DNA of 41,690 nucleotides from positions 1 through 41,690 of IMG/VR virus record IMGVR_UViG_3300013306_000029; one strand, 5' to 3'. Shown piece by piece: positions 36,013-41,690 of the stretch. The notes beneath the pieces were generated by a model. That model searched no databases. It had not been told where the DNA came from and was given only the letters and a program-made list of their open reading frames with translations. The DNA comes from a virus. The translations under genes and the position numbers were made by a program. Within the stretch, counting starts at the first letter, position 1. The number at the start of each line of letters is the position of its first letter.

Positions 36013-37617
36013 ATGGCTGTACCCGAGTTCACGATCACGGGCGACCTGCCCGCGTTCACGGGAGTTCAGCTCGCCCACTACGGCAGCGTGATCGTCAGGG
36101 CTGACCCCCCATTCCTGCCGCTCCCGGCCGAGTTGAAGACGCTGGTCGAGCCGCCGCCGATCCCGGTCGGCGAGGACGGCACGTTCACCGTCAACCTGGC
36201 CGCCGTCGAGGGCCTCGTCTACAAGCTCTCACTCAGCCCGCGTCACCTGTTCGACACGCTGATGTTCGCCGCTCAGCCCGAGGGCACGACCAAGGATCTG
36301 TCCGAGCTCCTGCCAGTCCTCGCCCCGTCCGGCATGACTCCCTACGTCAGGGGCGCGTCTGCCTATGAGGTAGCCCTAGCGGACGGCTTCGAGGGCACCG
36401 AGGCTGAGTGGCTGGCATCGCTCGTCGGCTTGCCGGGCGACGACGGGGACCCGGGCCTCTCCGCATACGACGTCGCACTCGCGGCCGGCTTCATTGGCAC
36501 CGTCGGTCAGTGGCTCGCCTCACTCGCTGCGCCGGCTGGCGAGCGCGTCGCCGTCATGGGCGACAGCATCGCGGCAGTCGGCACGTTCGCCCTGCACGGC
36601 ACCACCTGGCCAGCGGCCACGTGCGAAACGTCCGACCAGTGTCTCGAGCTCGTCGGCAGCACGGCCACCGGGGGCGAGACCACCACCCAGATCGCAGCCC
36701 ACATCTACGACACGCTTCTGTTCAGCCCAACCGTCATCCTCTTCACGGGTGGCGCCAACGACCTCGCCGCAGGATCGTCGCTCGCGACCTTCCAGGGAAA
36801 CGTCACCACCATCGCCGACAAGTCGCGCGACGCGGATGCGTTGTTCGTGCCCAGCAACATCACACCCCTCCCGAACTTGGGCGCAGGGGGACAGGCCGAT
36901 CTCCTCGCGTGGAACGCGTGGCTGGCCGAGTTCACCGCCGCCCGAGACCTGCCCCTCCTCGACTTCCACGCGCTGCTCACCGACGGCGGCACCGGCTTCG
37001 CCTCCGGCTACAACTCCGGCGACAACATCCACCCGTCGCAGGCGGCTCACGTGGCCATGGCGAACTTGGCCCGAGCCACCCTCGCGGCGCGCGGCATCGG
37101 CCTTATCGGCCGGCCGGAGCGTCGCGCCCTCGGCCGAGGGAACCTCGTGGTGGACCCGATGCTCGTGAACGGGTCCCCGATCTCGCTGAACTGGTCGTGG
37201 ACGCCGGCAACCGGCCACACCGGCACGAAGGTCGTTGACCCAGACTTCCGCGGCTTCGCCTTCCGGGACGTCGTCAGCGGAGCGGCCGGCGGGCTGGGGC
37301 AGTTCAACACGCAGACGATCACCGTGGTTCCCGGGCAGCGCCTCGTCGTGTCGGCCGAGAACCGTGTCGATGTCAGCACGGCGACCGCGGCGTCGTTCAA
37401 GGGCCTGCGGTTCGAGATCTGGTGGGGCGGCCCGCCGTGGGTCACGCCCCTCGTCCAAGGCTTCATCGCCCCGCGCGACATCGCGCGCTGGGAGTACGAG
37501 GTCGACGTGCCCGCCGGGGTCACGTCGCTGAACGTCGTCATGTTGATCAACGGCGTCACCGGCGCCGAGACCTTCACCTGCCTTCTCGGTGAGTGCTGCG
37601 TCCGCGTCGTCACCTGA
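36013..37617 (+). CDS. Tail protein with SGNH-hydrolase (esterase) domain
   Basis: 534 aa; GGGAGG nine bases upstream. Residues 1-100: beta-rich head that probably attaches to the tail. Residues 115-171: a duplicated motif, AYEVALADGFEGTEAEWLAS and AYDVALAAGFIGTVGQWLAS, known from phage fibers. Residues 178-365: SGNH/GDSL hydrolase with GDS (Ser185), GGAND (Asn249) and D-N-I-H (Asp337, His340), the catalytic set for removing acyl groups from cell-wall glycopolymers. Residues 365-534: C-terminal carbohydrate-binding-like beta domain. Probably the receptor-binding/de-acylating spike. Confidence 0.85.
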   Translation: MAVPEFTITGDLPAFTGVQLAHYGSVIVRADPPFLPLPAELKTLVEPPPIPVGEDGTFTVNLAAVEGLVYKLSLSPRHLFDTLMFAAQPEGTTKDLSELLPVLAPSGMTPYVRGASAYEVALADGFEGTEAEWLASLVGLPGDDGDPGLSAYDVALAAGFIGTVGQWLASLAAPAGERVAVMGDSIAAVGTFALHGTTWPAATCETSDQCLELVGSTATGGETTTQIAAHIYDTLLFSPTVILFTGGANDLAAGSSLATFQGNVTTIADKSRDADALFVPSNITPLPNLGAGGQADLLAWNAWLAEFTAARDLPLLDFHALLTDGGTGFASGYNSGDNIHPSQAAHVAMANLARATLAARGIGLIGRPERRALGRGNLVVDPMLVNGSPISLNWSWTPATGHTGTKVVDPDFRGFAFRDVVSGAAGGLGQFNTQTITVVPGQRLVVSAENRVDVSTATAASFKGLRFEIWWGGPPWVTPLVQGFIAPRDIARWEYEVDVPAGVTSLNVVMLINGVTGAETFTCLLGECCVRVVT

Positions 37618-37634
37618 CCCCGAGAGGAACGCCC

Positions 37635-37775
37635 ATGACCACTCTCCGCTGCACCAGCGAGACGCACGTCGAGATCCCTGAGCTGAAGGTCACCGTCGAG
37701 CCGAACCAGGAGCTCCAGGTCCCGGCCGCGCTCGCACCCATCTTGGTCGCCCGCGGCGGCTTCGAGTTCGTCTAG
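37635..37775 (+). CDS. Small hypothetical protein
   Basis: 46 aa, GAGAGGAA upstream. ELKVTVEPNQELQVPAALAPILV reads as a beta-hairpin with a short helix, a common mini-protein after actinophage tail spikes. Role unknown. Confidence 0.65.
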   Translation: MTTLRCTSETHVEIPELKVTVEPNQELQVPAALAPILVARGGFEFV

Positions 37776-37790
37776 GAAACGGAGCACGTC

Positions 37791-38279
37791 ATGCGCACAC
37801 GGCTCGTCGCAGCACTCGCGTTCGCCCTCGCCCTGCTCGTCGCCGTCCCAGCACCCGCCCAGGCTGAGGACATCGGCGCACGCTGGGCTGGCACCATCCG
37901 CGTCTACGACGCCACGGGAGACGCCCGCTGGGGCGTCGCTCAGGCCGCCCACGAGTGGGCCGCCAGCGGGGTCCCCATCGTCGTCGTCACGACCCCGTGC
38001 GCGCCCGGCTGCATCACCGTCATCGAGGACCCCTACCTCGCCTACGTCGGGCTGTCCTCGTGGTCCGTCAGCGGCACCACGATCACCTCGTGCACTGTGC
38101 GCCTTCTGACGCCGCACGCCGCGATGACGTGGGCCCACCGCATCACCGGCCACGAACTGGGCCACTGTCTCGGACTGGCGCACACGCTGCACAAGGGCTC
38201 GATCATGGTGACCGGCACGCTGACCCCGCTGGCCCCGATCCCGTGGGACCTGAGCCAACTCCGGGGACTGTACCGATGA
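37791..38279 (+). CDS. Secreted metzincin-like zinc protease
   Basis: 162 aa. Residues 1-25 are a signal peptide (basic MRTR, hydrophobic core ALAFALALLVAVP, Ala-x-Ala end near AQA), so the mature protein is exported. HELGHCLGLAH (121-131) is a full HExxHxxGxxH metzincin zinc motif with Glu122 as catalytic base; M139 in GSIMV can be the Met-turn. Mature core is only about 135 aa with four Cys (70, 74, 101, 126) that could form two disulfides. Closest in kind to matrixin/snapalysin-type proteases. Substrate unknown: host surface proteins or a late lysis step are options. Placed between tail and lysis genes; ATGA overlap with the next gene. Confidence 0.82.
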   Translation: MRTRLVAALAFALALLVAVPAPAQAEDIGARWAGTIRVYDATGDARWGVAQAAHEWAASGVPIVVVTTPCAPGCITVIEDPYLAYVGLSSWSVSGTTITSCTVRLLTPHAAMTWAHRITGHELGHCLGLAHTLHKGSIMVTGTLTPLAPIPWDLSQLRGLYR

Positions 38280-38704
38280 GCCCACAGCGCCTAGTGCGCC
38301 GGATACGTCGGGCGGGGTACGCCTGGCCTGATGTGATGGGCCTCGCGTTCTGTCTCGGCGTGATCCTCGTCGGCGTGCTCGGCATCATCAGACCCTCACC
38401 CACGATCGTCGAAGCCATCGGCGCAGTCGTGCTCGCCTACAACGTCGGCATGCTCATCGCCGGCGCCTTCGCTTTTCTCGGCATCGTCCTGAGAGCACGA
38501 CGGCTTGAGATGGTCGGGCTGGTGCTGGTCGCAGTGCTCACCCTCGTGCACGGCTCGCTGATCCTCATCGTCGCCGGCCCGCAAGCCGACCAGACCGCGA
38601 CGCGCATCCTGATCTCGACCTTCTCCTGCCTCTCGTGGGCGGGGTGTCGGTGGCAGCGCGGTTTGTCCATGCGTGACGTGAGCCGGATCGACGAGCTGTC
38701 GTGA
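38276..38704 (+). CDS. Multi-span membrane protein
   Basis: 142 aa with about four transmembrane segments: DVMGLAFCLGVILVGVLGII, VEAIGAVVLAYNVGMLIAGA, LEMVGLVLVAVLTLVHGSLI and a weaker fourth. Basic N-terminus (MSPQRLVRRIRR). The position before the lysis genes fits a holin-accessory or membrane-stress role, not proven. It overlaps the protease gene (ATGA) and the next gene (GTGA). Confidence 0.75.
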   Translation: MSPQRLVRRIRRAGYAWPDVMGLAFCLGVILVGVLGIIRPSPTIVEAIGAVVLAYNVGMLIAGAFAFLGIVLRARRLEMVGLVLVAVLTLVHGSLILIVAGPQADQTATRILISTFSCLSWAGCRWQRGLSMRDVSRIDELS

Positions 38705-39183
38705 ACGACGTCGGGGAGCTCATCAAGTGGGCTGTCGCGTTCGTGGTTCCGGGCGGCGTCGTGGCCGGATACCTGGCCATCCGCAAGGACCGCAGGGATG
38801 AGCCGGCCGACAAGGCCGACACGCTGCAGAAACTGATGGACCTGTCGACCTCTGCTGCAGCCAAGGCAGCCGAGGCTGCCATTGCGGCCAGCGATGCACA
38901 GGTCTCCGCAGCTAAGGCTGTGTCGGACGTGGCTGTAGCCCGCGCGGAGACGGCTACTGCAGTCGCCGAGACTGCGCAGGTCAAGGCCCAGCTTGAAGAG
39001 GTTAGGTCCGATTCGCTCAAGCAGGACATAGCCATCGACGAGATGGACGTGCGGATCCTCCGTCTCACCCGGAAGTTGCACGAGTGGTGGGAGTGGGGCC
39101 GCCACCTGCACGTCAACTGGGACGTCGTGCGTACACAGCCGAACCCGCCCCCACTGCCTGCCACATCAATGGAAGAGGACTGA
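38701..39183 (+). CDS. Membrane-anchored coiled-coil protein
   Basis: 160 aa, GTG start. One N-terminal transmembrane span (LIKWAVAFVVPGGVVAGYLAI), then a long Ala-rich coiled coil (about residues 40-115, TLQKLMDLSTSAAAKAAEAA onward) and a Trp/Pro-rich end. Similar proteins flank lysins in actinophages; it could span towards the outer wall or organise lysis. The endolysin starts 3 nt after its stop. Confidence 0.72.
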   Translation: MNDVGELIKWAVAFVVPGGVVAGYLAIRKDRRDEPADKADTLQKLMDLSTSAAAKAAEAAIAASDAQVSAAKAVSDVAVARAETATAVAETAQVKAQLEEVRSDSLKQDIAIDEMDVRILRLTRKLHEWWEWGRHLHVNWDVVRTQPNPPPLPATSMEED

Positions 39184-39186
39184 CCC

Positions 39187-40062
39187 ATGGGAGAGCGTTG
39201 GATCCCGGAAGCCGAGCGACTGACCCCGGCAGGTACCTACGGAACCATGTCCGGCAAGGGCGGTCCCCGTGCCACCCTGCACTGCACCGTGTCCGCCCCG
39301 ACACAGTTCGGCGACATGCACCGCGTGCTCACCAGCAAGAAAGCTGAACCGCACCTGCTCTACTCGTTCGCTGACGACCGGCTTGGGCAATACTTCCCGC
39401 TCGATGCGTCAGCACGCGCACTCATGGGCAGCGCAGCCGTGCCGTCTGGCGTCTCGCACAACCGGGTCGGCACCATCAACATCCAGATCGAGGTCGTCGG
39501 GTCCACTGACGACTGGACCGCTCGAGCCGACTGGCGACCCGGCCCCAAGTTCCGCGCCATGATGCGCGCCATCGCGTCGTGGGGCGTGCGTCCCGAGTTC
39601 ATCTACCGGCCCGCAACGACGAGCACCGACCGCGCCAACGTCGTCCGCTCGTTCGCCACGATGACCGGCGACGCGGGCGGCGGGAAGTGGTGGGGCCACT
39701 GCCACTACCCCGACGGCGAGTCTCACTGGGACCCGGGCCGCGTCAACCTCGCGCGGTTCTTCGCTGCAGCCAACATCGCAACAACCAGTCCATTGGAGGA
39801 AGACGACATGTACACCGACGCAGACCGCGCTGCTGAAGCCAAGCGCTACAGCGACCTCGCCACCCGACAGCAGGCCATCCTCGCTGCGCTCGCCAAGAAC
39901 GCCGCGGAGGACGCGGCGCGCGACGCCGCGCTCGCTTCGGCCGTCACGCAGATCGAGTCGACCGGGACCGTGGACCTCGCCTCTGTGCAGGCCGCAGCCA
40001 AGGCAGGCGCCGCCGACGCGCTCGCTGGCTACACCGTGCACCTCGAGCCCCCGCCCGCCTGA
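39187..40062 (+). CDS. Endolysin, N-acetylmuramoyl-L-alanine amidase type
   Basis: 291 aa; cuts peptidoglycan for cell exit. Amidase_2-like domain residues about 28-195: ATLHCTVSAP (zinc His32), HLLYSFADDRLGQYFPLD, NRVGTINIQIEV and GHCHYPDGESHWDPGRVNL (zinc/catalytic His and Asp). The C-terminal 84 residues are a charged Ala-rich helix rather than a known wall-binding fold. An ideal ribosome site GGAGGA (39795-39800) stands 7 nt before an in-frame ATG (39808), so this C-terminal part may also be made alone. No signal peptide, so release would need the holins. Confidence 0.88.
   Translation: MGERWIPEAERLTPAGTYGTMSGKGGPRATLHCTVSAPTQFGDMHRVLTSKKAEPHLLYSFADDRLGQYFPLDASARALMGSAAVPSGVSHNRVGTINIQIEVVGSTDDWTARADWRPGPKFRAMMRAIASWGVRPEFIYRPATTSTDRANVVRSFATMTGDAGGGKWWGHCHYPDGESHWDPGRVNLARFFAAANIATTSPLEEDDMYTDADRAAEAKRYSDLATRQQAILAALAKNAAEDAARDAALASAVTQIESTGTVDLASVQAAAKAGAADALAGYTVHLEPPPA
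39808..40062 (+). CDS. Possible internal product: endolysin C-terminal fragment
   Basis: In-frame internal ATG 39808 with GGAGGA 7 nt upstream, stronger than the ribosome site of the endolysin itself. It would give an 84-aa Ala-rich helical polypeptide beginning MYTDADRAAEAKRYSD. Internal starts that make separate binding subunits are known for several Gram-positive phage endolysins. Whether it is used here is unknown; GGAGGA could also arise by chance from the Glu-Glu codons. Confidence 0.45.
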   Translation: MYTDADRAAEAKRYSDLATRQQAILAALAKNAAEDAARDAALASAVTQIESTGTVDLASVQAAAKAGAADALAGYTVHLEPPPA

Positions 40063-40065
40063 GCC

Positions 40066-40218
40066 ATGACACTGACCCTCGAACAGTCGGCGCCTTGGGC
40101 GCGACTTATCGGCTACAGCGTGGTCGTGCTCGCCAGCGTCGTCGGCACCTTCGTCGGGCTGGCTGCCCTCGAGTTCGCCCTGTCTCACTCCAAACCCCGA
40201 CGCCACAAGGAGTCATGA
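40066..40218 (+). CDS. Small single-span holin-like protein
   Basis: 50 aa with one transmembrane helix (about residues 15-38, IGYSVVVLASVVGTFVGLAALEF) and a basic C-terminus (KPRRHKES), following the endolysin by 3 nt. The size and charge pattern fit a class III holin or an antiholin. It overlaps the next gene closely. Confidence 0.65.
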   Translation: MTLTLEQSAPWARLIGYSVVVLASVVGTFVGLAALEFALSHSKPRRHKES

Positions 40219-40478
40219 TGCTCGACCGTCTCGTATCGATCCTGCCGGCCAGCCAGCGCGACAAGGCCAAGGCGTGGGTGGCCTGGCTCGGCACCGTTGC
40301 CACCATCGCGGCACTCGTCACCCCGCAGGCGCCCAAGTGGCTCGTCGGCGCCATCGCCGTCCTGACTGCCCTCGGCGTGTACGGCACCCCCAACCAGGGC
40401 TACACGTCCGACCGCAGCCCAGCCCACGACACCGCCACGGGCTGGGTCGACGAGCGCGAAGGAGGCGACCCGTCATGA
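40218..40478 (+). CDS. Putative holin
   Basis: 86 aa with two close transmembrane segments (AWVAWLGTVATIAALV and WLVGAIAVLTALGVYG), then GTPNQGY and a charged tail. This is a common actinophage holin layout. ATG 40218 is preferred over ATG 40215 because AAGGAG is then at a usable distance (5 nt). Last gene of the late operon, followed by an intrinsic terminator. Confidence 0.77.
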   Translation: MLDRLVSILPASQRDKAKAWVAWLGTVATIAALVTPQAPKWLVGAIAVLTALGVYGTPNQGYTSDRSPAHDTATGWVDEREGGDPS

Positions 40479-40985: not shown

Positions 40986-41690
40986 GTGGCACGACGACCG
41001 CACGGCACCGGATCGGTGTTCCAAGAGCACGACCACGCCACCTGCCCCCCGGCTGTGGCTGGCGTCAGGCCGCCGCACGACTGCCTCGGCAGGTGGGTCG
41101 GCACCTATGAGGCGGGGTGGACGGCACGCGGCACCAGACGCCGCAGGAAGGTCGTCGCCCGCACCGAGTTGCAGGCCAAGCGCAAACTCGTCGCAGCCCT
41201 GCGCAAGGCCGAGCAGGCGGAGGCGCCCAAGGCTGGCGGCAAGCCCACCGTCAAGCGCTGGGCAGACCAGTGGCTCGAGACCACGCAAGCCACGCTGCGG
41301 CCCACCGCATGGAACGCCAACGCCTCGCTCGTGCGTAACTGGATCGTGCCCACCATCGGACACCGCCGTCTCGACCAGCTCGCACCCAGTGACGTGGCCG
41401 CGGTGATGCGCGCCATGTCCGGCGCAGGGCTCGCTGCAGCATCGGCGCGCCGATCCCACTTCGTCCTCAAGGGGATGCTGCGGGCCGCCGTCCTCGAGGG
41501 CCACATCGTGCCGCAGGGCGTCATGCTGGTGTCCGGCCCCGACAAGGGGGAGAACGACCGTGACGCCATCCCACTGCTCGACGCGCTTGCCCTTCTGGAG
41601 ACCGCCACGCGCCGGCCCGACGCCTCCCGGTGGGTGGCCGCACTCCTACAGGGGATGCGCCCGGCAGAGTGCCTTGGGCTGACATGGGCG
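40986..41690 (+). CDS. int: Tyrosine integrase, N-terminal part (gene continues at 1)
   Basis: GTG 40986 with AGGAG six bases upstream. Codons 1-194 run to 41567, then the gene enters the terminal repeat (41568-41690 = 1-123) and continues to 714. N-terminal arm-binding region (HGTGSVFQEHDHATC, then GRWVGTYEAGWTARGTRRRR), the SAM-like core-binding domain with TVKRWADQWLETTQATLRP and LVRNWIVPTIGHRRLDQL, then the start of the catalytic domain. Arg225 of box I (GMRPAE) falls in the repeat. Full protein 431 aa, usual for actinophage integrases. Confidence 0.94.
   Translation, partial: MARRPHGTGSVFQEHDHATCPPAVAGVRPPHDCLGRWVGTYEAGWTARGTRRRRKVVARTELQAKRKLVAALRKAEQAEAPKAGGKPTVKRWADQWLETTQATLRPTAWNANASLVRNWIVPTIGHRRLDQLAPSDVAAVMRAMSGAGLAAASARRSHFVLKGMLRAAVLEGHIVPQGVMLVSGPDKGENDRDAIPLLDALALLETATRRPDASRWVAALLQGMRPAECLGLTWA
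41568..41690. repeat. Right copy of 123-bp terminal direct repeat
   Basis: Identical to bases 1-123; see the left copy. When the circle is closed, one copy should be removed, giving 41,567 bp. Confidence 0.95.

Follow-up and report, generated by a model that had tools for sequence, protein, structure and literature searches.

A putative exported metzincin protease of matrixin type in the lysis block of a temperate actinobacterial phage

Phage-borne metzincin proteases have a described precedent in Listeria, where the secreted metzincin Mtz cleaves the TIMP-like lipoprotein Tim (LMRG_00713/00714) (PMC8235301). Mtz activity makes the cells more sensitive to mutanolysin, penicillin and Triton as well as to phage lysis, an effect that needs the Mtz active site and that depended on Tim (PMC8235301). 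Prophage copies of Mtz are frequently located downstream of the holin-lysin genes (PMC8235301). We analyzed a virus-derived stretch of 41,690 nucleotides (hereafter the window; IMG/VR record IMGVR_UViG_3300013306_000029), which encodes a protease of similar make. When compared with Mtz by description, both proteins are phage-borne and have a Sec signal peptide, an extended HExxHxxGxxH/D motif and a Met-turn. Mtz lies near holin-lysin genes and was proposed to be a lysis accessory, and the window protease is likewise found in a lysis block. However, the partner of Mtz is a TIMP-like lipoprotein, whereas no Tim-like gene was found in the window, and the Listeria gene is downstream of holin-lysin while the window gene is upstream. 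No lipobox protein was found among the predicted window genes, and the only matches to the pattern were antisense to other genes. Since a Tim-like gene was not found in the window, the Listeria mechanism is not transferable as it stands.

Other known proteins are related to the window protease through structure. Matrixins (MEROPS M10, PF00413), including MMP-1 and karilysin, share with it the fold, the three-His zinc motif, the Met-turn and the C-terminal helix, but at ~15% identity it differs from them in having no pro-domain, cysteine switch or hemopexin part and in having an extra disulfide candidate, C101–C126. Streptomyces snapalysin (M7, 132 aa) is likewise a small secreted actinobacterial metzincin and is near in length; it is synthesized with a propeptide and has Asp as the third zinc ligand. 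Proteins annotated as phage matrixins in BFVD (uncultured Caudovirales A0A6J5P205, Lactobacillus phage 3-521, and Maribacter phage Colly_1) have the same fold as the window protease at 15–17% identity, and the gene of Lactobacillus phage 3-521 is located amid small genes and tRNAs, away from lysis genes.

The protease gene (37791–38279, + strand) starts with ATG, stops with TGA, and encodes 162 amino acids. The predicted signal peptide covers residues 1–25 (MRTRLVAALAFALALLVAVPAPAQA|ED) and consists of MRTR, a hydrophobic core (19-residue hydropathy of 2.4) and AQA|ED, with the cleavage site after residue 25 assigned by inspection; residues 26–162 form the mature catalytic domain. The zinc-binding motif HELGHCLGLAH (residues 121–131; 38151–38183, + strand) and the Met-turn methionine M139 within SIM (38205–38207, + strand) are invariant across 40 aligned viral relatives, all of which have the same residues at H121, E122, G124, H125, G128, H131 and M139. 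The relatives were mostly fetched by the zinc-motif pattern, and this way of selecting them largely accounts for the invariance of H121, E122, G124, H125, G128 and H131; the invariant M139 is independent evidence, because the fetching pattern fixed the zinc motif only. The signal peptide, motif, Met-turn candidate, length and four cysteines that an earlier note had reported for this gene were confirmed; the cysteines are residues 70, 74, 101 and 126.

An antisense ORF of 412 aa (37047–38285, − strand) overlaps the protease gene, which raised the question of an annotation artefact or of a motif arising by chance in an ORF antisense to a GC-rich gene. Long antisense ORFs commonly arise at a GC content of 67%, and selection and homology favor the + strand over it. 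Exactly one HExxHxxGxxH motif was found in the window ORFs of at least 60 aa, compared with 0.05 expected per window from a second-order Markov simulation. The homologs, the fold, the selection and this expectation refute the artefact explanation, to which we give practically no weight.

AlphaFold2 was run on the protease alignment of 40 viral relatives (A2) and yielded a metzincin fold with a mean pLDDT of 91.1 and a pTM of 0.82. Along the chain, the model contains a strand at residues 36–40, a helix at 49–57, strands at 63–66, 74–79, 87–94 and 97–105, the zinc helix at 115–126, and a C-terminal helix at 151–161. The best Foldseek matches of the model were Streptomyces snapalysin (7.3e-7) and then MMP-1 (1.7e-6), and the VIA-align Z scores were 14.2 for MMP-1, 14.1 for karilysin, and 13.8 for snapalysin. 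The best Pfam family was M10 matrixin (PF00413), with 23.8 bits against a cut-off of 24 (E 4.5e-5). MMP-1 entries were the closest solved structures in a phmmer search, over residues 115–140 only, and PHROGs contained no usable family for the protease. Both clan features of metzincins, the zinc motif and the Met-turn, are present, as are an alpha/beta N-terminal subdomain, the active-site helix, and the C-terminal helix in the predicted structure. The metzincin assignment made in the earlier note was thus right, with the AlphaFold2 fold, Foldseek and VIA-align in agreement and the active-site helix and Met-turn both found in the model.

The third zinc ligand is H131, of the matrixin (M10) type and not the Asp of M7, and this His sets the protease apart from snapalysin, as compared with which it also has no pro-region. 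A pro-domain with a cysteine switch (M10A) was absent, and the catalytic domain starts within ~10 residues of the predicted cleavage site. We keep the label M10-like and do not claim vertebrate-type M10A, as bacterial matrixins vary in their pro-domain. The structural model, the active-site residues and the signal peptide strongly indicate a secreted metzincin, of matrixin type by its third zinc ligand.

The cysteines of the protease point to an additional structural feature. Cys126 sits inside the zinc motif (HExGHC). Among the exported viral metzincins with a motif Cys, 35 of 48 had a second Cys 13–24 residues upstream, compared with 5 of 53 when the motif had Ala or Val instead (odds ratio 26, p 4e-11). 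The association was retained after thinning the sequences to <50% identity (odds ratio 18, p 4e-8) and to <35% identity (odds ratio 10, p 2e-4), and in the nearest paralogous branch (L205 and L262) the motif Cys and the upstream Cys are missing together. Judged from this co-occurrence, a C101–C126 disulfide is likely, and the bond would fit export to an oxidising place. A C70–C74 disulfide is possible.

The window has a 123-bp direct repeat at its ends (1–123 and 41568–41690). The N-terminal part of a tyrosine integrase (40986–41690, + strand) continues at 1–714, with PHROG 1 matched in both pieces, and the integrase frame joins across the window ends, with the repeated bases read twice. The terminal repeat and the split integrase show that the window is the whole genome of a temperate phage, circular and about 41.57 kb long. 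Its structural and packaging genes include those for terminase, portal, major capsid, major tail and tape-measure proteins. The nearest terminases came from genomes of Mycobacteroides (71%), Nocardioides (65%), Gordonia and Williamsia; the phage host is an actinobacterium. The protease was not found in the genomes of these four genera with related terminase.

The protease gene lies in a run of co-directional genes on the + strand. It is preceded by a tail fibre or spike gene with a GDSL lipase-acylhydrolase domain (36013–37617; Pfam PF13472, 1.5e-17; PHROG tail families) and a 46-aa ORF (37635–37775; no PHROG match). It is followed by a 142-aa membrane protein with three hydrophobic segments, a holin candidate with no confident family in Pfam or PHROGs (38276–38704), a 160-aa holin-like protein with one N-terminal TM segment and a predicted coiled region (38701–39183; weak PHROG matches only), an endolysin (39187–40062; PHROG 17214 lysis, 1.9e-22) that is at most 40% identical to endolysins of Streptomyces phages, and two small genes (40066–40478) encoding proteins of 50 aa (one TM segment) and 86 aa (DUF7439/PHROG 17495 membrane protein). 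Successive genes of this run, beginning with the spike and ending with the last membrane gene, are spaced by 17, 15, −4, −4, 3, 3, and −1 bases, the protease starting 15 bases after the previous gene and its stop overlapping the start of the 142-aa protein by four bases (ATGA). The position between the tail spike and the holin and endolysin genes given in the earlier note was accurate as to these neighbors, but the 46-aa ORF intervenes between spike and protease. Such a layout is that of a late lysis operon, which argues for late expression of the protease. The GDSL esterase domain occupies the C-terminal half of the spike and probably deacetylates a host surface glycan.

The two closest orthologs of the protease were found in IMG/VR 3300043313_001251 (L002, 89% identity) and 3300037420_001608 (L009/L100, 55% identity), both of which share the signal peptide, the four cysteines, and the lysis-cassette position with the window protease. 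The gene order in L002 is fibre, protease, TM protein, endolysin, and small TM proteins. The protease and endolysin of L002 are 88–95% identical to those of the window, whereas its fibre is of a different, collagen-like type unrelated to the window spike, and its TM protein has no similarity to the window 160-aa protein. The protease therefore stayed with the endolysin through module exchange. In L009/L100 the cassette order differs from that of the window and reads membrane protein, TM protein, protease, putative lysin, membrane protein, and integrase, placing the protease after a holin-like gene and before the putative lysin, for which the sole PHROG match in L100 is a 'membrane associated protein'. 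No homology was detected by BLASTP between the holin-like genes of the window and those of L002 and L009 (two pairs), and what the holin-like genes of the three phages have in common is limited to their size, number of TM segments and position. Only in this close clade (the window, L002, and L009/L100) is the link with lysis solid.

The dN/dS values against the L002 ortholog, estimated by two methods, were 0.12–0.30 for the protease, close to the 0.07–0.20 of the neighboring endolysin, and the protease gene is under purifying selection. These results bear on the idea that the protein is inactive, or that it has retained the metzincin fold for binding and not for proteolysis. In line with this idea, some bacterial relatives have Gln as the first zinc ligand (QEVGHTLGL.H), as seen in the Nocardioidaceae chromosomes L236, L240, L244, L248 and L252, where the motif is QExGHTLGLxH and the family pattern is otherwise retained. 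However, all ligands, Glu122 and Met139 are intact in the window protease and in every aligned phage sequence, none of the close phage orthologs has lost the zinc motif, and the catalytic region is conserved under purifying selection, so that we consider an inactive protein very improbable.

Lysis by actinobacterial phages has been described through holins, lysins A and B, and spanin-like proteins, to which proteolysis of envelope proteins would add a further layer. By analogy with Listeria Mtz-Tim, we lean on balance towards a late-expressed, Sec-exported matrixin that cuts envelope proteins to ease phage exit. The protease would be produced together with the tail-to-lysis operon, exit the cell via Sec before or during holin triggering, and fold outside with its disulfides, active without a pro-domain. 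Its substrates would be host envelope proteins (membrane-anchored, wall-bound, lipoproteins or wall-enzyme regulators), and the weakened envelope would allow endolysin action and virion release to be more complete, as for Listeria Mtz minus a phage-encoded Tim partner. An exit or wall-protein role had also been suggested in the earlier note; it is plausible and partly supported by the position, which is conserved in the close clade, but most viral exported metzincins are not beside lysis genes among the Pfam families listed.

The gene might instead be a lysogenic-conversion or moron gene, merely near the lysis/att end, whose secreted product helps the lysogen in nutrition, competition, or surface remodelling against other phages. 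The phage is temperate, as the integrase indicates, and the gene lies in the lysis-to-att region, where conversion genes are usually found. Similarly built secreted matrixins are encoded in the chromosomes of 31 of 198 Nocardioidaceae genomes. On the other hand, the tight co-directional packing of the protease gene (15 bases, 4-base overlap) argues against a private regulon, and the gene is in the same block in L002 and L009. We regard conversion as rather unlikely; the distribution of relatives described below speaks in its favor.

Two motif scans identified 95 IMG/VR stretches with HE.GHC.G..H and at least 120 with the Ala/Val form, together more than 200 viral contigs. Many of the proteins in these scans had 150–260 aa and a signal peptide or membrane anchor. 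The earlier note regarded exported matrixin-like proteases as unusual cargo for a phage; this view does not hold, given these counts and the published Listeria case (PMC8235301). As the scans show, uncultured phages repeatedly encode exported metzincins, most of them unannotated. When 50,697 sequenced phage records were searched by tblastn with the protease, no close relatives were obtained at E 0.01 and nothing sensible at E 10, and a protease-alignment search of genome contigs found no relatives. The window protease is a new example of a kind that is fairly common in uncultured phages and of which one, that of Listeria, is known to aid phage lysis.

The neighborhoods of the viral relatives vary and include tail genes, genes for nucleotide metabolism and, in large phages, gyrase B genes. 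Lysis neighbors as a general trait of viral exported metzincins were rejected: for 221 neighbor proteins, called by a simple script, few lysis families were among the Pfam families listed, in lists of up to 25 families. Some more distant relatives are in lysis blocks, which speaks for the exit reading, such as that of L146, which adjoins an M15 endolysin, and that of L024, which sits with holin-like and M23 peptidase genes. Others are single insertions elsewhere: between terminase and portal (L205 and L262), next to endolysin and holin-like genes but in the orientation opposite to the late genes (L264), or beyond the integrase at the contig edge (L079). The comparison of ortholog positions proposed in the earlier note showed a place in the lysis cassette for the two closest orthologs, which is not general in distant relatives. 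Relatives between terminase and portal or opposite the late strand indicate that the family moves about like a moron, which favors conversion and counts against the exit reading. Next to the protease gene in L205 (6099–6599) and L262 (8434–8934), we observed a His-rich repeat protein (HPPGWHPRKH repeats) that is possibly metal-binding.

In isolate-genome prophages (L256, 3161–4935; also L189 and L125/L258), a gene for a 411-aa exported metzincin overlaps a lipoprotein gene. The pair adjoins a holin and two endolysins but in L256 lies on the other strand, an arrangement that also agrees with conversion. The lipoprotein of the mycobacterial-type prophages L189 and L256, a candidate partner, had no TIMP match in Pfam; such a pair is a possible actinobacterial parallel to Listeria Mtz-Tim.

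Full metzincin motifs (such as HEVGHALGLHH...SIMHP) were also found inside tape-measure-type proteins of ~1,040–1,210 aa in L107 (11791–12231), L185 (6737–7207) and L221 (5824–6300), the last being gene 17 of Arthrobacter phage Shambre1 with the motif IHEVGHALGLHH..SIMHP. A metzincin in a tape-measure-type protein would travel in the virion. These domains, and the location of the window gene after the tail spike, would fit a virion-associated protease that is carried on the spike or tail and opens the envelope at entry. A free protein with a signal peptide, however, would leave the producing cell and not enter virions, and we think a virion role improbable. Returning to the exit reading, we would extend it only tentatively, and with clearly less confidence, to a clade of actinophages in which a dedicated exported, disulfide-stabilised matrixin would provide an extra lysis step without a TIMP-like partner by dissolving envelope protein links. 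Related domains would then be used twice, secreted for exit in the clade and within tape-measure proteins for entry in L107, L185 and Shambre1.

A different domain arrangement was observed in L162 (12164–12790), where a single frame encodes a metzincin domain preceded by a holin-like N-terminal part with a coiled region, a TM segment and a Cys, and this frame directly follows two small TM genes.
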